A DNA stretch of 64,000 nucleotides, from contig NZ_JNKW01000006.1 in NCBI RefSeq assembly GCF_000702205.1, forward strand, positions 1 through 64,000, written 5' to 3'. Both the position numbers and the translations under genes were made by a program. Positions within the stretch are counted from its first letter, which is position 1, and each line of letters opens with the position of its first letter. Source of the stretch: Lachnospira multipara LB2003. GTDB lineage: Bacteria > Bacillota > Clostridia > Lachnospirales > Lachnospiraceae. The notes under the pieces are model-generated. The model had not been told where the DNA came from, made no database searches, and saw nothing but the letters and a program-made list of their open reading frames with translations. This document shows, one piece after another, positions 29,307-64,000 of this stretch.

Positions 29307-30761
29307 TTACTGGCATACTCTAGATAGCTCATCTATACGAGCCGATGTGGATGTAGCAGTTGCATTATTAATAAATAATACATTTTGAATATTATATTGG
29401 CTCACAAGGTCTGATACTGTGCCGTCATAATATCTATAGTCAATAACATAGATATTCTGGAAATTCTCTGTAAGAAATGGAACCAAGGCATTGCCAAAGG
29501 ATTCCTTAATTACAAGAATTGATGAACCATCATTAATATTCGGATTGGTTATTGTGGAATAAGAATTATCACCGCCAATTAAGGCGCTGTACTTACTTGT
29601 TATGTTCCAACCTGTTACATCTGTTACTATATTGTAATCTGTAAGCACGTTATCACTGTTTACAAACTGCATTTTATTAGTTGAGCTTGGCACATAAGTT
29701 ACAAAAGAATCTGGCGAACTATATAGCGAAGATGCTCTTGTCTGTGTGTAAAAGCTTCCAACAAAATTACCGCAATCTAACATCGTAAATGAATCAAGAC
29801 TTGCAGGTGCCTTATTTATCTGTGTCATAAATGCACTATATGCGTAATATGCACCAAGACTTGTCCAATGATGATCTGTTCTAAAGTAAATATATTCGTT
29901 TCTGTGTTCCTTTAACAAGTCGTAAATATAGCATTTACCAACATTTGAATTCATTTTACTAAACATATATAAAATAGCTTTTTTCTGATTACTGCTTGAA
30001 ATACTGTTACGAGTTGCATCATCAAGTACAATATCTATACTTGTTGGAACAATCATATCATAAACTCTTGCCCTTCCTTCTAAGTTACTTGCAAGGTTAT
30101 TAACCACGCTTGCGTACCTATCAGACTCAGACTGAAGGAATGTAAAATAATTATATCCGCTATTTTCAACAACAAATATTGACCCTAAGGACTCACCTGC
30201 CTTGGCTGCTGTACTGCCATCAGTATCCTCAACTTCCATGCCAATATCACTTGCCGATATATTAGTGTTCTTGTATGAATAATTTGCAATAAGACTTTGG
30301 TCTGCCATAACTTCTCCATATGCTACCTCAGTTTCATCTAAACCATCCACAAGATTTTTATTAACAAAATCCATTTCATCTATATCTACATCTGGAATAT
30401 CATCACCCTTTACAATTTCACCATGGATGGAATTGGTGTGAAATCCGTATGTATTATTAAGTACCTCACTACACACAATCAAACCATCTCTTCCAGGAAA
30501 TGTGTCTGAAAACCATGTATCAATACTTGCAAAATATTCTCCACTTAAAAATGATTCCATTGTAAATTTGGGAAATTTACTAAGAGTTCTTCTCTCTGTT
30601 ATAGACTCAGTAGGTCTAAGCGGTATCATAAGCGAAATGGTTGCCCCAATGACAATCATGCATAAAAAGACGATTATCTTGACAATTGCGGCTTTTTTAA
30701 TAATAAACTCCCTGTATTTTGCAGATGTTTTATCAATTCTGCTTTCACTATTACTTTTCAT
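29307..30761 (-). CDS. DHHW-family SGNH-like protein, partner of MBOAT
   Basis: The ATG at 30761 is used; a TTG two codons earlier is possible. One membrane anchor near residues 25-45 (KIIVFLCMIVIGATISLMI) is followed by a large extracellular domain. The motif FRTDHHWTSLGAYYAY near residue 290 names the family and belongs to the AlgJ/AlgX/DltD-like group of SGNH enzymes. A GNALVPFLTEN block near 425 follows KESF, where such proteins carry their catalytic Ser. It follows an MBOAT O-acyltransferase gene by 146 bases on the same strand. The pair probably moves acyl groups onto a wall polymer outside the cell. Confidence 0.9.
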   Translation of the reverse strand: MKSNSESRIDKTSAKYREFIIKKAAIVKIIVFLCMIVIGATISLMIPLRPTESITERRTLSKFPKFTMESFLSGEYFASIDTWFSDTFPGRDGLIVCSEVLNNTYGFHTNSIHGEIVKGDDIPDVDIDEMDFVNKNLVDGLDETEVAYGEVMADQSLIANYSYKNTNISASDIGMEVEDTDGSTAAKAGESLGSIFVVENSGYNYFTFLQSESDRYASVVNNLASNLEGRARVYDMIVPTSIDIVLDDATRNSISSSNQKKAILYMFSKMNSNVGKCYIYDLLKEHRNEYIYFRTDHHWTSLGAYYAYSAFMTQINKAPASLDSFTMLDCGNFVGSFYTQTRASSLYSSPDSFVTYVPSSTNKMQFVNSDNVLTDYNIVTDVTGWNITSKYSALIGGDNSYSTITNPNINDGSSILVIKESFGNALVPFLTENFQNIYVIDYRYYDGTVSDLVSQYNIQNVLFINNATATSTSARIDELSRVCQ

Positions 30762-30906
30762 GAACAACTTTCTTCTTTCCTAATCTCTACTCTAAAAATA
30801 ATGTCTGTTTTGTTCAAACGTCTCCCTACAATATTTCTCCAGATATTGTAACGTTTCTAGTTTAATAATGTCCGTTTAATTCAATGGTACAAATCCCCAT
30901 TAGCAC

Positions 30907-32382
30907 CTAGAATCTAAAATAAATAAACGGATTATAACTATTACCAATCAGACAAACTGTTGATAAGAAAAGCAGAACAACCGGGATAATAACATTTAGA
31001 ATATTGTAAATGTAGACAAATGCTACCTCCCTATTTACCCCTAAATCTCTTATCTTAGCAGCCACCTTTTTAACAAGTGGTGTTACAGCAATTATTAAAA
31101 TTACAAAGAATATCACATTATTGATAAATATTGTGTTGGTTTCAAGGTTAGTAAATTCATTGCCATTTAGTCCAAAAAGGCTACGAATTACTTGCTTTAT
31201 AACCGAGAAATCTTCGAATCTAAATAAAACCCATCCGAAGAAAACCACAATTAATGTATATATTCTTCCAATTACTGCTCTTGCTATATTTCCAATTTTA
31301 TCAAAAAACTTTAAAAGAAACAACTTCTCGATAGATAAAAATGCAAAAAAATACAATCCCCAAAGTACAAAATTAAATGAAGCTCCATGCCATAGACCTG
31401 TAAGTCCCCATACTATAAACATATTAAGGATTTGTCTTTTTATTCCCTTTCTATTACCTCCTAAGGGAATGTATAAATAATCCCTAAAGAAGGTACTTAG
31501 GGAAATATGCCATCTTCTCCAAAACTCAGTAATAGATTTTGATATATATGGATAATTAAAGTTTTCCTTATACTCAAATCCAGTCATTTTTCCAAGGCCA
31601 ATAGCCATATCTGAGTATGCAGAAAAATCAAGATAAATATAAATCATATAAAGAATACTTGCTATCCAAGCCCCAAGCACTGTAACCTGACTAGCAGCAA
31701 TTGCACTAGCATCATCAGGAAGTATATCTTTTATGATACTTGCGCAGGTATTAGCTAAAATTGTCTTTTTTGCAAGACCAACACAAAATCTTGATATACC
31801 ATCATTCATATTGTTAATGCTTGTTTTTCTTTCCTTAAGATCATCAGCAATGTCCTTATAACGAACAATTGGACCAGCAATACACTGATGGAATAATGAT
31901 GCATAAAGCAAAACCCTTGCATAATTAGTCTCAGCCTCAATCTCACCTCTATAAACATCAACAACATATGAAATAAGCTGGAATGTATAAAAAGAAATAC
32001 CAACCGGCAAAATTATATCTGGTATAACACGTGGCACACCAATTACAGCTTTTAAAATCTCGCATGTAAAGCCGGTATATTTAAAAATTCCTAGAATAAG
32101 CAAATTGGCAGCAACTGTTAAGCCAAGTGCTAAATGTCTGTTTTTTTCCATGTTTGGATTATTAACATCACTTGATGCCTTGGCTATTCTAACAGCGCCA
32201 AAATAGCTTACAAAAGCAGAGGCCATCATAATCAACAAATATGTTGGTGATGACCACGCATAAAATACTAATGAAAAAAATAGAACACAAAGATTTTTCT
32301 TCTTTATGTCAGATATTACCGCATAACACAACAAATTTACCGGTAAAAAAATGTACACAAATAACAGGCTTGAAAAAACCAT
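30907..32382 (-). CDS. MBOAT family O-acyltransferase
   Basis: The 491-residue protein has about ten membrane helices and the MBOAT core. It contains PVGISFYTFQLISYVVDVYR near 126, the arginine-rich block SITEFWRRWHISLSTFFRDY near 293, YIPLGGNRKG, and the active-site His332 in LTGLWHGASFNF. This matches AlgI/DltB-type enzymes that carry acyl groups across the membrane for O-acylation of surface polysaccharide or teichoic acid. The DHHW/SGNH gene follows on the same strand. No adenylation enzyme or carrier is beside it, so acetyl-CoA rather than D-alanyl carrier is the likely donor. Confidence 0.94.
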   Translation of the reverse strand: MVFSSLLFVYIFLPVNLLCYAVISDIKKKNLCVLFFSLVFYAWSSPTYLLIMMASAFVSYFGAVRIAKASSDVNNPNMEKNRHLALGLTVAANLLILGIFKYTGFTCEILKAVIGVPRVIPDIILPVGISFYTFQLISYVVDVYRGEIEAETNYARVLLYASLFHQCIAGPIVRYKDIADDLKERKTSINNMNDGISRFCVGLAKKTILANTCASIIKDILPDDASAIAASQVTVLGAWIASILYMIYIYLDFSAYSDMAIGLGKMTGFEYKENFNYPYISKSITEFWRRWHISLSTFFRDYLYIPLGGNRKGIKRQILNMFIVWGLTGLWHGASFNFVLWGLYFFAFLSIEKLFLLKFFDKIGNIARAVIGRIYTLIVVFFGWVLFRFEDFSVIKQVIRSLFGLNGNEFTNLETNTIFINNVIFFVILIIAVTPLVKKVAAKIRDLGVNREVAFVYIYNILNVIIPVVLLFLSTVCLIGNSYNPFIYFRF

Positions 32383-55883: not shown

Positions 55884-57434
55884 TTAGTTAAAATTGTGAC
55901 CAAAAAATAGCACCTTACAAATTTCCCCTAGAGTTTTAGTTGAATATCCTGTGAAATTACTATCATAAGGTGTAACAAAAAGCAGAAATACTGTCATTAT
56001 TGTAATAAGGCACAAATACGCAATATTTCTTCTAAAGTTATTTTTAAATCTAGCATCTATTGTTTCTGATAGAGCACCTATGCAAATAAATGCATTCACT
56101 CCCATCAAAAATAAGAAGTCCATCTTATATCTTTCAAGCAAATATGGAGTCCAAAGTATTGATGTTATAGTAATAATTACAGGGATAAAATTAAGTATCA
56201 TAGTAAATAAATAGATACCATCCTTTGATAGCTTTTCACGCACGCGTCTAAAAAATACTGCAAATACCACTAATAACATTGGAAATTCCACAAATATTCC
56301 AGAGAAACCTATAAATGGAAATTCTTTCTTAACATTCTTATATTTAATAAAATTGTCCGCCAATCCATTAATTACCCTAACCAGATCAAATTCCTCAAAG
56401 AAAGAACCGTAAGCTGTCTGATCTGCTACTGTCATCTGGTAGCTTTGTCCAAATTCAAATGGATTCTCAAATCTAATCTGATTATACACCATTAAAGCTA
56501 GAGCTACAACCAAGTAAGGAATCATGGCTATAAACAAGGTAATCACTGCATTTTTAATCTTAGCCTTACTTTTAGTAATATATTCTCCTGCAAGGCATTT
56601 TTTTATGAATCTAATAACAATAGGAATTGTGGCAAGACATATTAAACCAACTGTTGGTCTACATCCCCAACTAAGGGCGCCAAATAATGCTCCTATTAAG
56701 GCATAAATTCTTACTTTCTTAAGACTAGTCTCAACATATACTCCACGTATAAGAAAGTAAAGACTCCAAATCTGACAACATATAGCTGCTGCAATAGCAG
56801 TGCAATAAAGCTCTGGTGCATCCATAATATACCAAAGACTAAGCAGAGAAATCGTTAGATATAAAAGCATATTAAGCATTAAGGGAGTGTTTTTAAAGAA
56901 TCTCTTTTTAAGTAAATCAAAGAGTAGGAATAATCCCAGCAAAAATAAAGCCACCATTATTCTTGTAGCCATAATTGTTGGAAGGTCCATTCCCGTAATC
57001 ATTCTAAAGGGAAGAAAAAATACCAATACAGGCACAACACCAAAATACATGTAATACTTTCCATTATAAAAAGCACTATCCCAATGAACCTTAACACCTT
57101 CATCTAATCGTGCCTCGTAATCATAAGGATTATCCATTGTAAGAAGTTTCTCATCAATATCATCAAATTCTAGATAAAGATGTCCATGTAGAAAGCTTCT
57201 TGCAAGTAACTCATATTGATTATGATGATTTTCATTCCTACCATTCCATGTAGGGCTAAAGCCCATTGGAACTAACACAAGAATCATAGTTAGAACAATA
57301 GTTGATATTTTAATCACTCTATTTCTTTGTCCATTTTTTTCAAAATCATCTTTCCAAAAGCATGACTTTTTATTAAAGGCATAAAAGCATGCAATTATCA
57401 AAGCCCATATAATTATACTGCATAATATGTACAT
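55884..57434 (-). CDS. GT-C-like polytopic glycosyltransferase or membrane protein
   Basis: The 516-residue protein has about 11-12 membrane helices. After the first helices lies an outer loop with NHHNQYELLARSFLHGHLYL near 72, followed by NPYDYEARLDEGVKVHWD and FYNGKYYMYFGVVPVL. This His/Asp-rich first loop is typical of GT-C (family 39-like) enzymes that use lipid-linked sugars. It lies 11 bases downstream of a dolichol-phosphate-mannose-like family 2 transferase, which could make its lipid-linked sugar donor. The acceptor is unknown; protein or wall-polymer glycosylation is possible. Confidence 0.75.
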   Translation of the reverse strand: MYILCSIIIWALIIACFYAFNKKSCFWKDDFEKNGQRNRVIKISTIVLTMILVLVPMGFSPTWNGRNENHHNQYELLARSFLHGHLYLEFDDIDEKLLTMDNPYDYEARLDEGVKVHWDSAFYNGKYYMYFGVVPVLVFFLPFRMITGMDLPTIMATRIMVALFLLGLFLLFDLLKKRFFKNTPLMLNMLLYLTISLLSLWYIMDAPELYCTAIAAAICCQIWSLYFLIRGVYVETSLKKVRIYALIGALFGALSWGCRPTVGLICLATIPIVIRFIKKCLAGEYITKSKAKIKNAVITLFIAMIPYLVVALALMVYNQIRFENPFEFGQSYQMTVADQTAYGSFFEEFDLVRVINGLADNFIKYKNVKKEFPFIGFSGIFVEFPMLLVVFAVFFRRVREKLSKDGIYLFTMILNFIPVIITITSILWTPYLLERYKMDFLFLMGVNAFICIGALSETIDARFKNNFRRNIAYLCLITIMTVFLLFVTPYDSNFTGYSTKTLGEICKVLFFGHNFN

Positions 57435-57445
57435 TAATACTCCCC

Positions 57446-58192
57446 CTATTTTTCATCATAATAATGTAAAAAATAGACTCTATAAAAAATCTTCCAGGTG
57501 TCTACAAAGGCTCTAAATATATCCTTTAGTCCAATTCTATTAACACCCTTATCACGCACAAATACAACTTCAACTGGCATCTGTGCAATCTTAGCCCCTC
57601 TTCTGTGAACTGCAACTAACAATTCTATATCATAAGCAAATCCTGCTGTTCTAATTAAATGGCCCACCGGTTTTATAGCAGATGCTCTAAATACCTTTAA
57701 ACCCGTCTGTGTATCCTTTACATTTAAATGAAACAAGCATAATAGCATTAAATAATAACCCATGCTAATTACCTTTCGTTTAAATGGATACTTTAATTTA
57801 GAATCTTTATGAAATTTACAGCCAATAACCACATCCTTATTGTCTGTTATCATCTTCTCTAAATAGCCTTCTAACTGACTCGGATTAAGTTCCAAATCTG
57901 CATCAACAAAAGCTATATATTCTCCATCTGATTGCATTACACCAGCCATAATCGCGTTCCCCTTACCACGATTCTTACCATACGAAACCGGTCTAATACG
58001 ACCATCCTTTCTTGCTGCCCTTTTGATTTCTTCTAAGGTGTTATCCTTACTTCCATCATTAACCACAACTATTTCAAAGTCCTCTACGAAATTACTTACA
58101 ATTTCTACTGTCTTAATTAAATTGCCATATATAAGAGTTTCTTCGTTATATGCTGGCATAACTACCGATAATTTTCCGTCTAAATCTAGCAT
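57446..58192 (-). CDS. family 2 glycosyltransferase, polyprenyl-phosphate sugar synthase-like
   Basis: The ATG at 58192 is used; GTG one codon earlier is possible. The 248-residue soluble protein has the GT-A fold: LSVVMPAYNEET near residue 8, FEIVVVNDGSKDNTLEEIKR near 38, GKGNAIMAG, the metal motif FVDADLELNP (DAD) near 94, and DTQTGLKVFRA near 160. It resembles DPM1-type enzymes that place a sugar on polyprenyl phosphate. It lies 11 bases upstream of the GT-C-like gene, a usual donor-maker and user pair. Confidence 0.9.
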   Translation of the reverse strand: MLDLDGKLSVVMPAYNEETLIYGNLIKTVEIVSNFVEDFEIVVVNDGSKDNTLEEIKRAARKDGRIRPVSYGKNRGKGNAIMAGVMQSDGEYIAFVDADLELNPSQLEGYLEKMITDNKDVVIGCKFHKDSKLKYPFKRKVISMGYYLMLLCLFHLNVKDTQTGLKVFRASAIKPVGHLIRTAGFAYDIELLVAVHRRGAKIAQMPVEVVFVRDKGVNRIGLKDIFRAFVDTWKIFYRVYFLHYYDEK

Positions 58193-58216
58193 CACCCAAT
58201 ATCCTTCTCCATAAAA

Positions 58217-60201: not shown

Positions 60202-60429
60202 TTAGTCTTCCTGTAATCTGTTTACCATATCAAGTAATCCCTTAGCGCTATTAAAATTAGCTGGAATAATTTCACTTGCAGGAATAGAAATATCATATTC
60301 ATCTGAAAGTGCTGATATAATCTGTAAGATATCAAATGAATCTAAGATATGATCATCAATAAGTGTTGTGCAATTCTCAAAATCAACGTCTTCTTTAACG
60401 TCCTGTAAAATTTCAATTAATTCTTCCAT
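60202..60429 (-). CDS. stand-alone acyl/peptidyl carrier protein (DltC-like)
   Basis: The 75-residue acidic helical protein carries the phosphopantetheine site DSFD (Ser31), followed by ILQIISALSDEYDISIPASE, the standard carrier-protein pattern. It is last in a tight minus-strand operon after a PLP enzyme and an adenylation enzyme that has no carrier domain of its own. It is therefore the probable acceptor of the activated amino acid or amine. Size and context resemble DltC; a fatty-acid ACP is less likely because no fatty acid genes are near. Confidence 0.9.
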   Translation of the reverse strand: MEELIEILQDVKEDVDFENCTTLIDDHILDSFDILQIISALSDEYDISIPASEIIPANFNSAKGLLDMVNRLQED

Positions 60430-60445
60430 TTATAATTCCTCTTTT

Positions 60446-61651
60446 CTATTGTATTGAATTTATCTCGTAGCTTTCTACGAAATCTCTAGCCATTGTTATA
60501 CCATTATCCCATAACACTACTCTTGGCATTGTACGACTTAAGAAGAGATAAATTCCCTCTGTAATAGAGTACGCTCCCATGTTAAAGAATGCAAGTACAT
60601 CTCCCATTTTTAAATCTATTGGTAATTGGCTAACTATCACATCATTAGTTGTACATAAGCTACCATATAAACAATACTTCTTCTTTGTGTCCTTATCTTG
60701 TAGGTCCTGTGAAGAAAAAATGTATTCGTCACTGCTTAAATTATAGAGCTTAGGCACCTTCATTCCCATCATCTGACCATAGTAATTAATGTGGTTTAAA
60801 CCTCCGTCAATAAAGGCAAAATCCACACCCTTATTAGACTTCATATCTACTATGCTAGTTAAATAATAACCGCAGAATGTTGCAAGAAATCTACCCATTT
60901 CAATTGTTACTTCATAACCCATATCTGAAACTTTATTTAATTCATCACTAATTTCCTTTAGTGGAAGAAGTGTGTCTGAGTAGTCATCTTCTGCAAAAAT
61001 AGGGACTTTAGCCCCAGGACCATATTCAACTCTTTCCATTTTAAAGCCATGTTCTTTCTCTATTAATTCAAGAAAATCTGTAACTTTAGCCAATTCCTTC
61101 AACTGCTTAGAGCTATGTTTTTTCTGAGTTCCTGTAAAGAAGTGAATACCTTTTATGTTTAATTTGTCGAATTTATCCCTATTATCAATTACATAAAGGA
61201 AATCTTCCTTGCTCATACCAAACTGGTTGCCACCATTAAGTCTTAAGATTACATTAACCTTAGTCTTAGCATACTTCTGAATTAATTCCACATGACGAAG
61301 AGATTCAGCTGTAAATGTACCTACTCTACCGCCTTGGCCTACACCATATTCAATAGCTCTCTTAACATCTTTGTCTGATTTATGCACACCTGAATATATG
61401 ATTTTATCAGGATTTATCTTATATTTAGCACAAATTTCTAATTCTCCTGGTGAGCATACTTCTAAACCATCTAGATCATCAACAATAGCAGATGTTAAAA
61501 ATGGATTAGCCTTAATTGAAAAAACTAGACCTATCTTATCACCAATTATTTGTCTTATTTGTCCAATTCTTTCTTTAACTTCAGCTACATCAAATACATA
61601 TGTTGGAGTGCCACATTCCTTGGCAACCTTTTTTAATTCTTCTATATTCAT
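60446..61651 (-). CDS. PLP enzyme of the diaminopimelate/ornithine decarboxylase fold
   Basis: The 401-residue protein is a fold type III PLP enzyme. The PLP lysine is Lys47 in VFSIKANPF. The Gly-rich phosphate site lies near GVGQGGRVGTF, EMGRFLATFCGYYL is near 262, and YGSLCTTNDVI near 335 carries the Cys typical of decarboxylases. DapA/LysA proper are usually longer in the C-domain and carry different substrate residues, so this is a relative acting on a lysine-, ornithine- or carboxylated-amine-like substrate. It lies between the adenylation gene (18-base gap) and the carrier gene (16-base gap), so its product is probably what is activated or what is formed on the carrier. Confidence 0.85.
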   Translation of the reverse strand: MNIEELKKVAKECGTPTYVFDVAEVKERIGQIRQIIGDKIGLVFSIKANPFLTSAIVDDLDGLEVCSPGELEICAKYKINPDKIIYSGVHKSDKDVKRAIEYGVGQGGRVGTFTAESLRHVELIQKYAKTKVNVILRLNGGNQFGMSKEDFLYVIDNRDKFDKLNIKGIHFFTGTQKKHSSKQLKELAKVTDFLELIEKEHGFKMERVEYGPGAKVPIFAEDDYSDTLLPLKEISDELNKVSDMGYEVTIEMGRFLATFCGYYLTSIVDMKSNKGVDFAFIDGGLNHINYYGQMMGMKVPKLYNLSSDEYIFSSQDLQDKDTKKKYCLYGSLCTTNDVIVSQLPIDLKMGDVLAFFNMGAYSITEGIYLFLSRTMPRVVLWDNGITMARDFVESYEINSIQ

Positions 61652-61669
61652 ATTAGTCCCTTACCTTAA

Positions 61670-63202
61670 TTATTCTAGTCCTACTACTTTCTTAAGAGCA
61701 TTTCTATCAATTTTACCATTTTTAGTCATTGGCATTTCATCAAGTATGAATACCTTATTAGGAATCATAAATGGTGGCAAATCCTCTCTTAAGCCCTCAA
61801 GAAGTTCCTTCTTATCTACATCACCTGTGGCAACAAGTAATAACTTCTTCTTATTGTTATCATATAAACAACAACTTCTTTCTACATGTTCCTTAGAACT
61901 TGCAGCAACTTCGATTTCTCCAAGTTCAATACGCTGTCCCATATGTTTAACCTGGAAATCCTTACGAGAAACATAATATAGAAGACCATTCTCATCAAAT
62001 CGACCTAAATCTCCTGTTCTATACATCATTTCAAGGAAGTTCTTATTAGCTGGGTTTGGCATAAATGCTCTACTTGTCTTATCTGGATCTTTATAGTATC
62101 CAAGGGCTAAACATGCTCCTGATACACAGATTTCGCCAACTTCACCTGGCTTTGTAATCTCTTCATCATCTTCATTTAATAAGAATACATGCTCATTCTC
62201 AAATGCCTTACCTGCAGGAATTACTTCCTTTAAGTCATATTCCCTATCTACAATATGATATGTACAATTACATGTTATTTCTGTTGGACCATATACATTG
62301 ATATATGTGGCATTTGGAAGATATTTTTTCCAAACATTAAGCTGCTTTATTGGCATTACTTCACCTGAGAAGATTACCTTCTTAACTGTTTCTGGAACCT
62401 TATATCCAAAGCCATTCATTATTGAAACAAAACACATTGCACTAACTGCCCATACAAGCACTGTTGGCTTTCTATCTACCAAATAATCCATAAGCTGTGT
62501 TGGATTAGAAAAATATGCTCTTGGTATAATATTAACTGTACCACCAACTGAAATTGATGCGAAGATATCCTTTACTGATACATCAAAATCAAATGGTGCC
62601 TGATTTGCCCAAACGTCTGATTCTGTCAAATCAAATGTCTTATTAAATACTGTAATAAAATCTATAATAGAGCCATGTCCTACCACAACGCCCTTTGGTG
62701 TTCCTGTACTTCCACTTGTAAAGTTTACATATACAGGATCATTAGACATTGCACTACGTCTTACTTTTTCTAAAAGCTCTTTATCTATTTCTGTGTTGTC
62801 CTTTAGATGTTCCTCTAAATTAACGATTCTTGTACCTTCATATCCACCAAATAAAATCTCTGCATTAGAGAAATTCTCATTATCTGTAAAAATTACTCTT
62901 GGTGTAAGAGTTTCAATTACCTTTAACTGTCTAACTTCAGGACTTCTTAAATCTATAAATGAATAAAACGCTCTTGCCTTTAATGTTGCAAACATACCTG
63001 CTGTAGCATCTACGCATTTTTCAAGGTAGAAAGCTACTGCTTCTCTTGGCTTAATGCCAATTTCCTTTAAAAGAAAAGTTGCTAGTCTATCGCTCTTCTC
63101 TTCTAAATCTCCATAAGTTATTGTCTTTACTGTGTCAGCAAAAGCTACCTTTCCTGGTAATCTCTTAGCTGAATTTTCTAACCAATCTAATACATTATTC
63201 AT
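61670..63202 (-). CDS. amino-acid adenylation enzyme (DltA-like)
   Basis: The 510-residue enzyme has the complete ANL-family motif set: VNFTSGSTGTPKGVVVGH near 150, NVYGPTEITC near 290, YRTGDLGRFDENG near 385, SRKDFQVKHMGQRIELGE near 405 and the catalytic Lys in TKNGKIDRNAL near 498. It lacks a carrier domain and so must load the separate acyl carrier protein, as DltA loads DltC. Overall order resembles DltA, but the context has a PLP enzyme in place of dltB next to it, so D-alanine is only one option. The selectivity pocket cannot be read with confidence by eye. Confidence 0.9.
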   Translation of the reverse strand: MNNVLDWLENSAKRLPGKVAFADTVKTITYGDLEEKSDRLATFLLKEIGIKPREAVAFYLEKCVDATAGMFATLKARAFYSFIDLRSPEVRQLKVIETLTPRVIFTDNENFSNAEILFGGYEGTRIVNLEEHLKDNTEIDKELLEKVRRSAMSNDPVYVNFTSGSTGTPKGVVVGHGSIIDFITVFNKTFDLTESDVWANQAPFDFDVSVKDIFASISVGGTVNIIPRAYFSNPTQLMDYLVDRKPTVLVWAVSAMCFVSIMNGFGYKVPETVKKVIFSGEVMPIKQLNVWKKYLPNATYINVYGPTEITCNCTYHIVDREYDLKEVIPAGKAFENEHVFLLNEDDEEITKPGEVGEICVSGACLALGYYKDPDKTSRAFMPNPANKNFLEMMYRTGDLGRFDENGLLYYVSRKDFQVKHMGQRIELGEIEVAASSKEHVERSCCLYDNNKKKLLLVATGDVDKKELLEGLREDLPPFMIPNKVFILDEMPMTKNGKIDRNALKKVVGLE

Positions 63203-63316
63203 TTCATTCCTTCTTCCCGCGAACTTACATTATCATACGTATTATTTTTATTCGCCATCTCTTATTGTACCCTTGTTTTTGTTTCTAATAAAGTGAAAAA
63301 TTTTATTGTATAAAAA

Positions 63317-64000
63317 CTAATATTTTATTGTCTGGATACATCTTTTTTCATATGCCACATCTGTTCCTACTTGTCTTGCATTAACTATTATCTTAATGCA
63401 TCCATTGTCGTTACCATCGGAATTAAGTGGAATCACTGCGCTTGTATCAGTAGAGTAATCTTTTATTACATCCACCTGACATGTTGTTTCATTATATACG
63501 GTGTACTGATATTCCACCTCCACATTAGTTCCTTTATAACTAATAGGTGTTACACATATACTATCGCCCTCACACTTGGTTTTAAACCAAACCGTAGATA
63601 TATAATCTATGGAATTTAGGTATTCTTCTGGTGTGTAGAATAAAGAATCCACGTCAGTTCCCGCGTCTTTTTTTAATAAAAAATTAGCTATTGATGTTGA
63701 GAAAGCCTCTGAGCCCTCTTTATTCATATGTTCATGGTCAAAATAGTACTTATCGCTATTAGTAAAAAGCTCATCCTTAGCTAAACTAAAATCATAATAT
63801 GAAGCACCATATTCACTAAATAAACTCTGTAGTAGTAACATTTTTTCAAAATATTCATCACCATTAGTGCCATAGCTTAATATATCAAAAGCCGGTCTTG
63901 GTGTGGCAACTACCACAAGTTCCACTCCTGCATCCTTACACATACTTGCTATATCTCTTAATTCCTGTAGCGAATCCTCACTAAAGGTTTCAGAGTAATA
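63317..64000 (-). CDS. SGNH/DltD-like exported protein, N-terminus beyond window
   Basis: The frame is open to the window edge, so the start lies beyond base 64000; an internal Met at 63943 is not the true start. The visible 227 residues include VELVVVATPRPAFDILSYG, then the SGNH-type catalytic pair in YYFDHEHMNKEGSEAFSTSI near 100 (Asp and His), followed by a beta-rich C-terminal domain (VTPISYKGTNVEVEYQYTVY). This is the layout of DltD-like or alginate-type acyl-transfer partners. It precedes the adenylation gene by 114 bases on the same strand and is probably part of the same Dlt-like system. Confidence 0.75.
   Translation of the reverse strand, partial: YYSETFSEDSLQELRDIASMCKDAGVELVVVATPRPAFDILSYGTNGDEYFEKMLLLQSLFSEYGASYYDFSLAKDELFTNSDKYYFDHEHMNKEGSEAFSTSIANFLLKKDAGTDVDSLFYTPEEYLNSIDYISTVWFKTKCEGDSICVTPISYKGTNVEVEYQYTVYNETTCQVDVIKDYSTDTSAVIPLNSDGNDNGCIKIIVNARQVGTDVAYEKRCIQTIKY

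Follow-up and report, generated by a model that had tools for sequence, protein, structure and literature searches.

In the first 64,000 nucleotides of a contig of Lachnospira multipara LB2003 (the window; positions 1-64000 of contig C5 in a 2.58 Mb genome of 21 contigs) and across the far edge of this stretch, we identified a five-gene unit, hereafter the cassette, in which a pyridoxal 5'-phosphate (PLP) enzyme related to BtrK of butirosin synthesis is combined with an amino-acid adenylation enzyme, a stand-alone carrier protein, a membrane-bound O-acyltransferase (MBOAT) and an SGNH protein (Table 1). As judged from sequence, the cassette adds a BtrK-like enzyme to the known plan of Dlt and MBOAT-SGNH systems. 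With moderate confidence we propose that it carries out a Dlt-like surface acylation with a tailoring step on the carrier, so that a decarboxylated omega-amine product would be delivered to a surface glycan. No description of the cassette was found in the titles and abstracts of the open-licence literature searched. A preliminary description of the window had listed the carrier, the PLP enzyme, the adenylation enzyme and the part of the SGNH gene that the window holds. All four are present, the first three in families confirmed by Pfam, and the MBOAT/DltB gene that it proposed to look for past base 64000 was found there.

Conservation and distribution of the cassette

Homologous loci were selected by the PLP gene from a sample of named genomes, in which 568 of the 595 pattern matches listed encode a relative of the PLP enzyme (both figures being lower bounds). 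The best 80 of at least 568 loci were taken, and 45 of them have at least 6 kb of sequence on both sides of the PLP gene. All five genes were found within 6 kb in 35 of these 45 loci, while the other 10 are without one or more. Within 6 kb of the PLP gene, the adenylation gene was detected in 43 loci, always on the same strand, the carrier gene in 42, and the MBOAT and SGNH genes in 39 each. Since all five genes stand together in 35 of 45 homologous loci, the grouping is not due to chance.

The best 80 named loci include members of Lachnospira, Butyrivibrio, Roseburia, Dorea, Gemmiger and Ruminococcus, and also Slackia, Olsenella, Tractidigestivibacter, Erysipelotrichaceae and Treponema. The cassette recurs in many Lachnospiraceae and was seen in Coriobacteriia, Erysipelotrichaceae and Treponema, and the presence of Treponema suggests that the acceptor need not be teichoic acid. 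Among the matches listed, the closest named relatives of the PLP enzyme are those of Lachnospira pectinoschiza and L. multipara (71% identical). In a survey of 200 genomes of the host's family, Lachnospiraceae, the PLP enzyme was listed in 40 (E <= 1e-40), and one more, in genome G112, was found later. Of 299 genomes representing the phylum, three encode it at E <= 1e-50, the L. multipara genome itself included, indicating a patchy distribution of the PLP enzyme.

The adenylation enzyme and its pocket

The adenylation enzyme passed the general amino-acid adenylation model TIGR01733 and failed both DltA models by a wide margin (TIGR01734, 271.8 bits against a cut-off of 559.85). The name DltA-like, used in the preliminary description, holds as a likeness but not as an assignment to DltA. 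Ten pocket positions were taken from the alignment, and the GrsA numbering was assigned by us. The pocket reads DVKxxS(L/V)CNK in 86 of the 98 aligned enzymes, with Asp235 and Val236 in these proportions as well, and IARx(C/I)SQASK in the remaining 12, which are without Asp235; Ser at position 301 is common to all 98. For comparison, DltA was detected over the cut-off in 6 of the 200 family genomes, all six with the pocket DLMVLCTV(A/C)K. The same pocket was read in 9 of the 10 family matches scoring above 470 bits on the DltA model, the tenth (L152; 489 bits, under the cut-off) having DVIVIAGVLK. The predicted pocket of the cassette enzyme is thus not that of DltA, and such constancy in different phyla suggests one fixed substrate or two.

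Adenylation enzymes for beta-amino acids, VinN above all, are described in a review as having Asp235, Ser301 and, at 236, a bulkier residue (PMC11253843). In the window enzyme, GrsA positions 235, 236 and 301 are D, V and S, and position 239 is Lys. A second carboxylate might be bound by Lys or Arg at 239, a suggestion helped by substrate codes for which no paper was found in the literature searched. The IAR-type enzymes may take a different acid, because Asp235 is missing from them. A further stand-alone adenylation enzyme is encoded at C1:470255-471667 (L010), with the pocket DIESIGTVCK and a score under the DltA cut-off; a GNAT-like gene, recognized by eye, adjoins it.

The PLP enzyme

A PDB search with the single sequence of the PLP enzyme placed BtrK first (E 2e-27). 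When the family profile was compared with the PDB, BtrK was the first of 51 sequences matched, with 209 bits, followed by SbnH with 175 and the best diaminopimelate decarboxylase, also with 175. The best NCBIfam model is TIGR03099 (166.1 bits against a cut-off of 478.45). The structural model of the enzyme has a mean pLDDT (predicted local distance difference test) of 93.3.

BtrK converts BtrI-S-glutamate into BtrI-S-GABA (GABA, 4-aminobutyrate), the glutamate being carrier-bound, and the substrate of SbnH is a citryl conjugate (PMC7857480), while VinO decarboxylates 3-methylaspartyl-VinL and requires prior loading (PMC11284099).

Lys47, the PLP lysine, and Cys333 are invariant in the 106 aligned PLP enzymes. 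In enzymes of the lysA type, a CE motif and an RPxxY stretch hold diaminopimelate. The residue after Cys333 is Thr or Ser in 105 of the 106 cassette enzymes and Met in one, Glu being found in none, and after DGG the family has an NH(V/L)NYxGQ-like stretch instead of RPxxY. The genome has its own lysA-type enzyme, so labelled on its MRPAMY and CENND motifs and on its TIGR01048 score of 282.6 bits, slightly below the cut-off of 297.9; the cassette enzyme gave 148.4 bits on the same model. A carboxynorspermidine decarboxylase gene (nspC) is located elsewhere in the genome. A plain lysine-pathway decarboxylase was rejected as the identity of the cassette enzyme, since it lacks the lysA motifs and genes of the lysA type and nspC exist elsewhere in the genome. 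The preliminary description had named as the contrary case an adenylation enzyme accepting only D-alanine beside a plain biosynthetic decarboxylase; at the sequence level we found instead a pocket other than that of DltA and a separate lysA-type gene.

Carrier, MBOAT and SGNH proteins

In the carrier, Ser31 within DSFD is the expected site of pantetheine attachment, and it is kept in all 67 aligned carriers, the window protein included. The best NCBIfam models of the carrier are AsbD and DltC, both under the cut-off.

The only PDB matches of the MBOAT protein are two DltB sequences (best E 4.8e-27), and its Lachnospira homologue scored 174.8 bits on TIGR04091 against a cut-off of 375. The histidine of the WHG motif is present in 67 of 67 MBOATs, that of the window cassette included. 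The motif (F/M)xYxx(F/Y) closes the protein in every one of the 66 complete MBOATs from the named loci, a count that takes in additional MBOAT genes; the strict form FxYxxF is found in 57 of them, and the cassette MBOAT of the window ends in FMYANY. In PatA the acyl group was shown to be carried by a tyrosine within the FXYXXF motif at its C-terminus; DltX is reported to play this part for DltB, and in other MBOAT/SGNH pathways the MBOAT itself bears the motif and a similar carrier protein is lacking (PMC12148441). No DltX was found in the genome, the best match, at 16.9 bits, staying under the cut-off of 25. By having both a carrier gene and a C-terminal shuttle motif on the MBOAT, the cassette joins a Dlt-type carrier donor to a PatA-type fused shuttle tail.

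The window SGNH protein matched no Pfam family and no PDB sequence, and at E <= 1 nothing in the genome matched the DltD family (PF04914). A model was made for the L. multipara homologue (L046; pLDDT 91.2), in which the SGNH fold is clear. The model has a helix at the N-terminus and, at about residues 373-468, an additional C-terminal beta domain, little of which was covered in the fold comparisons. DltD (6pfx) was the top Foldseek match by E-value (1.2e-6), at a low TM-score of 0.32/0.38. In a second fold comparison the DltD entries gave Z 12.3-12.7 over 233-259 residues and other SGNH enzymes gave values up to Z 13.9. The term DltD-like in the preliminary description thus found no support by sequence; by fold it agrees with the first rank of DltD in Foldseek, at that low TM-score and level with or below other SGNH enzymes in the second comparison. 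Among 73 aligned proteins, Gly61 and His322 are conserved in all, Ser63 in 71 and Asp319 in 62.

Two other MBOAT genes were noted on the same contig. One (30907-32382, C-terminus FIYFRF) lies in the window within 29307-32382 on the minus strand, beside a gene for an exported-looking protein of 486 residues, which by eye may be a partner in polysaccharide O-acetylation. The other is at contig position 109201 and has the C-terminus FMYAMF.

Pocket type and the PLP gene in a wider Dlt-like set

When the adenylation enzyme was used as the query, regardless of the PLP gene, 99 matches (E <= 1e-80) were obtained in 82 of the 200 family genomes. The pockets of all 99 were read; flanking sequences were taken for all 59 matches without a PLP gene within 6 kb, and further sequence for five of the matches with one, so as to read their pockets. 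Beside the PLP gene (40 matches), the pockets are DVK in 36 cases, DIK in one, IAR in two and DAK in one; without it (59 matches), they are DVK in 11, IAR in one and other types in 47. The PLP gene therefore adjoins a DVK/DIK or IAR pocket in 39 of 40 cases and, conversely, of the 42 PLP genes in the family set, 40 have one of its adenylation genes no more than 6 kb away. The Fisher value for pocket type versus PLP gene is 1.9e-13 over 92 rows, a calculation that ignores relatedness and was not used as proof. In a quick FastTree tree, the DVK and IAR enzymes group together (61 rows, support 93; other forks beside it left open), and within this group the state of the PLP gene changes eight times by parsimony. 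A strict one-to-one coupling between pocket and PLP gene was looked for and not found, as DVK and IAR enzymes without the PLP gene exist; the PLP gene accompanies two pocket types but is not obligatory. At L246:7713-11057 (minus strand), where the pocket is of the DAK class, the PLP domain starts an open frame of 1114 residues that continues with Rib, Ig-like and transglutaminase domains, either a fusion or an assembly fault.

Among adenylation enzymes with other pockets and no PLP gene, 32 of 49 rows (the 47 matches above and two further rows) have carrier, MBOAT and SGNH genes within 6 kb. Frequent pockets in these Dlt-like cassettes are DAKCAGLGMK and SMLYLALDIK. The PLP cassette belongs to a broader Dlt-like set, in which the other pockets almost always occur without the PLP gene. 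Replacement of the canonical dlt genes by the cassette, i.e. mutual exclusion, was considered and is unsupported, as genomes G082 and G152 have both DltA over the cut-off and the PLP gene.

Several loci of the wider set carry other additional genes. In L162, L198 and L199, all with DVK pockets, the adenylation or carrier gene has a Formyl_trans_N gene as its neighbor, and a PLP gene was not seen in the stretch, L162 being at a contig end; N-formylation of the loaded group is possible in these three loci. A GNAT gene was observed in two cassettes, L157 (other pocket) and L215 (DVK pocket). This handful of loci hints at tailoring of the loaded group as a theme. In L155 and L156 (pockets DAPIICMYAK and DNLFLCLDVK), an adenylation enzyme and a carrier lie in what appear by eye to be nonulosonic-acid gene clusters, and neither an MBOAT nor a PLP gene was seen in the stretch.

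Gene order and neighboring genes

The order of transcription is MBOAT, SGNH protein, adenylation enzyme, PLP enzyme and carrier, with intergenic gaps of 27, 114, 18 and 16 bases, respectively. A promoter scan gave 27 promoter-like sites against a mean of 35.3 in shuffled sequences; as there is no excess over shuffles, we make no claim on the 114-bp gap in front of the adenylation gene. Terminator-like sites numbered 5, against 2.6 in shuffles.

Table 1. Genes of the cassette on contig C5, listed by position
Gene product	Coordinates	Strand	Basis of assignment
Carrier, stand-alone acyl/peptidyl type, 75 residues	60202-60429	-	Pfam PP-binding over cut-off
PLP enzyme, alanine-racemase fold, 401 residues	60446-61651	-	Pfam Orn_Arg_deC_N and Orn_DAP_Arg_deC over cut-off
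Amino-acid adenylation enzyme, stand-alone, 510 residues, pocket DVKVISVCNK	61670-63202	-	Pfam AMP-binding and AMP-binding_C over cut-off; TIGR01733 over cut-off
SGNH protein, putative acyltransferase, 458 residues	63317-64693 (window holds C-terminal part, 63317-64000)	-	SGNH fold of modelled homologue
DltB-like MBOAT, 563 residues, C-terminus FMYANY	64721-66412 (L004:6722-8413), beyond window edge	-	Pfam MBOAT over cut-off

Past the window edge and divergent from the MBOAT gene, C5:66648-68093 (L004:8649-10094, plus strand) encodes a predicted secreted protein of 481 residues. It contains a Pfam ubiquitin domain (PF00240, E 2.6e-28), and its signal peptide and C-terminal anchor were judged by eye. 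On the other side, positions 55884-58195 of the window (minus strand) hold a gene for a membrane-like protein of 516 residues without a Pfam family, adjoining a GT2 glycosyltransferase; the two possibly form a glycan side-chain unit.

Proposed pathway and its alternatives

In the pathway that we propose, the adenylation enzyme would activate L-aspartate or L-glutamate via the side-chain carboxyl and load it onto the stand-alone carrier (step 1). Attachment by the far carboxyl would leave the alpha-amino-acid head open to PLP chemistry, and the BtrK-like enzyme could take off the free alpha-carboxyl to leave beta-alanyl- or 4-aminobutyryl-carrier (step 2). Side-chain loading is the most economical assumption, because loading through the alpha-carboxyl would make alpha-decarboxylation impossible. 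The MBOAT would then accept the carrier-bound acyl group on its own C-terminal tail, at the tyrosine of FxYxx(F/Y), one protein doing the jobs of DltB and DltX (step 3), and the exported SGNH protein would receive the group on its serine and pass it to a hydroxyl of the surface glycan (step 4). The product would be an ester-linked omega-amino acid with an added positive charge. Steps 1, 2 and 4 we infer in substance, together with the substrate, the product and the acceptor, and step 3 is drawn by analogy with PatA and DltX (PMC12148441). If the pathway is correct, aspartate is slightly favored as the substrate, glutamate is a reasonable but weaker candidate, and any other acid is improbable. 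The lean to aspartate and beta-alanine follows from the VinN-type features of the pocket and from the readiness of a GABA thioester to close into a lactam, a reaction that butirosin synthesis probably prevents by a protecting group. Protective-group chemistry is named in the title of a 2005 paper cited in PMC7857480.

Several observations weigh against this pathway. The PLP enzyme is tied in fold between BtrK (Z 38.7, root-mean-square deviation 2.5, 373 aligned residues) and diaminopimelate decarboxylase (Z 38.8, deviation 2.4, 370 aligned), and also in Foldseek (E 6.9e-29 versus 5.7e-29), so that the fold does not decide between them. At the Arg of lysA the alignment programs disagree, HMMER setting Tyr290 opposite the Arg of 2p3e and MAFFT leaving the RP stretch as an insertion. 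The placement of Tyr290 opposite this Arg in 105 of 106 enzymes was not counted, because it came from HMMER and an ungapped reading by eye only and was not reproduced by MAFFT. In the adenylation enzymes, the positions of VinN K330/R331 are occupied by Cys/Asn in 86 of 98, and the shortened beta13-beta14 loop of VinN was not seen in a check by eye against DltA-type enzymes, VinN itself being unaligned. Moreover, a PLP gene is lacking within 6 kb of 12 of the 51 adenylation enzymes with DVK/DIK or IAR pockets (L162 and L245 being at contig ends). Seven of these PLP-less genomes gave no PLP match at E <= 1e-40, which is not proof of absence, as the same list missed the gene of G112. The loaded group can apparently be used without the PLP enzyme. 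Lys239 is also found in the DAK class, 23 of whose 24 members are without the PLP gene, and one PLP gene stands beside a DAK-class enzyme (L246).

Some of these observations would agree with a supply-plus-Dlt unit, in which decarboxylation by the PLP enzyme takes place on a free amino acid and its product (beta-alanine, GABA or a diamine-type compound) is what the adenylation enzyme loads: the diaminopimelate decarboxylases, with which the fold is tied, act on a free amino acid, and cassettes with the same pocket but no PLP gene could draw the product from another source. We regard this arrangement as unlikely, because the nearest solved sequence is that of the carrier-acting BtrK, and SbnH, level behind it with the best diaminopimelate decarboxylase, acts on a citryl conjugate. 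The CE and RPxxY motifs of lysA are absent, and Lys239 would suit a second carboxylate, which is missing from a beta- or gamma-amino acid product. The presence of Lys239 in the mostly PLP-less DAK class, together with the 12 enzymes lacking a PLP neighbor, might also be explained if the alpha-carboxyl of aspartate or glutamate were activated as in an ordinary nonribosomal peptide synthetase (NRPS), the PLP enzyme being co-transcribed but working elsewhere. This seems quite improbable in view of the closeness of the two genes, within 6 kb for 40 of 42 PLP genes of the family set and on the same strand in 43 of 45 named loci. The probability is smaller still that the PLP enzyme racemises or epimerises, the operon loading a D-amino acid other than alanine. 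The classic Dlt system does use a D-amino acid, and the PLP enzyme has a weak Ala_racemase_N match (23.5 bits, cut-off 24.1), but the C-terminal sheet domain of decarboxylases is present over the cut-off and Cys333, at the place of the decarboxylases' cysteine, is found in all 106 enzymes.

Of the two ideas in the preliminary description, the loading of an unusual amino acid and decarboxylation on the carrier, the latter is now the better supported, with BtrK as the nearest solved relative by sequence, a conserved pocket differing from that of DltA, and DVK/DIK or IAR pockets beside 39 of 40 PLP genes.

Implications

Surface aminoacylation in Gram-positive bacteria sets surface charge, tolerance to antimicrobial peptides and sensing by the host, and it is usually read as D-alanine. 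The detection of DltA over the cut-off in 6 of the 200 family genomes, as against relatives of the cassette adenylation enzyme in 82, indicates that the naming of such enzymes as D-alanine ligases would often be wrong. If the proposed pathway is true, common gut and rumen bacteria bear a different surface ester, made by carrier-bound decarboxylation, a reaction which to our knowledge has so far been known only from antibiotic pathways. It would also predict a loss of 44 Da on one small carrier, which is directly testable. More tentatively, and with somewhat less than even confidence, we can imagine, in gut Lachnospiraceae and others, a common carrier/MBOAT/SGNH chassis that is served by varied adenylation enzymes and by enzymes remodelling the cargo on the carrier, such as the PLP decarboxylase of this cassette and, in a few related ones, the products of formyltransferase or GNAT genes. 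The surface esters would then be diverse, decarboxylated omega-amino acids among them, and not mainly D-alanine.

Comparison with known systems

The cassette resembles the BtrI/BtrJ/BtrK set of butirosin synthesis in its PLP enzyme, which is nearest to BtrK by sequence, in its carrier and in the proposed decarboxylation of an amino acid loaded through the side chain. It differs in that an NRPS-type adenylation enzyme replaces BtrJ, which is an ATP-grasp ligase, and a membrane pair for export and transfer replaces the aminoglycoside acceptor. With VinN/VinL/VinO (and FlvN), which supply macrolactam starter units, the cassette shares an adenylation enzyme, a stand-alone carrier and a putative PLP decarboxylase, and the pockets share D235, Ser301 and, at 236, a bulkier residue. 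In the Vin precedent an adenylation enzyme and a carrier are followed by PLP decarboxylation on the carrier (PMC11284099). K330/R331 of VinN are not conserved in the cassette, no polyketide synthase was seen beside it, and its partners are the MBOAT and SGNH proteins. The ligase and decarboxylase associated with exosortase A (TIGR03098 and TIGR03099) are matched by the adenylation and PLP enzymes, respectively, but far below the cut-offs (207.6 bits against 592.35 and 166.1 against 478.45).

With PatA/PatB the cassette shares the C-terminal shuttle motif of the FxYxxF type and the SGNH partner; its donor, however, is expected to be the carrier protein and not acetyl-CoA. The likeness to dlt lies in the adenylation enzyme, the stand-alone carrier, the DltB-like MBOAT and the exported SGNH protein, for which DltD is the top Foldseek match by E-value. 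Unlike dltXABCD, the cassette has the pocket DVK..CNK in place of the DLMVLCTV(A/C)K of DltA, an added PLP enzyme, no DltX over the cut-off but a shuttle tyrosine fused to its MBOAT, and an extra C-terminal beta domain in its SGNH protein. By the tests made, the cassette lies outside the Dlt system of D-alanylation, though downstream of the carrier it very likely works like Dlt.

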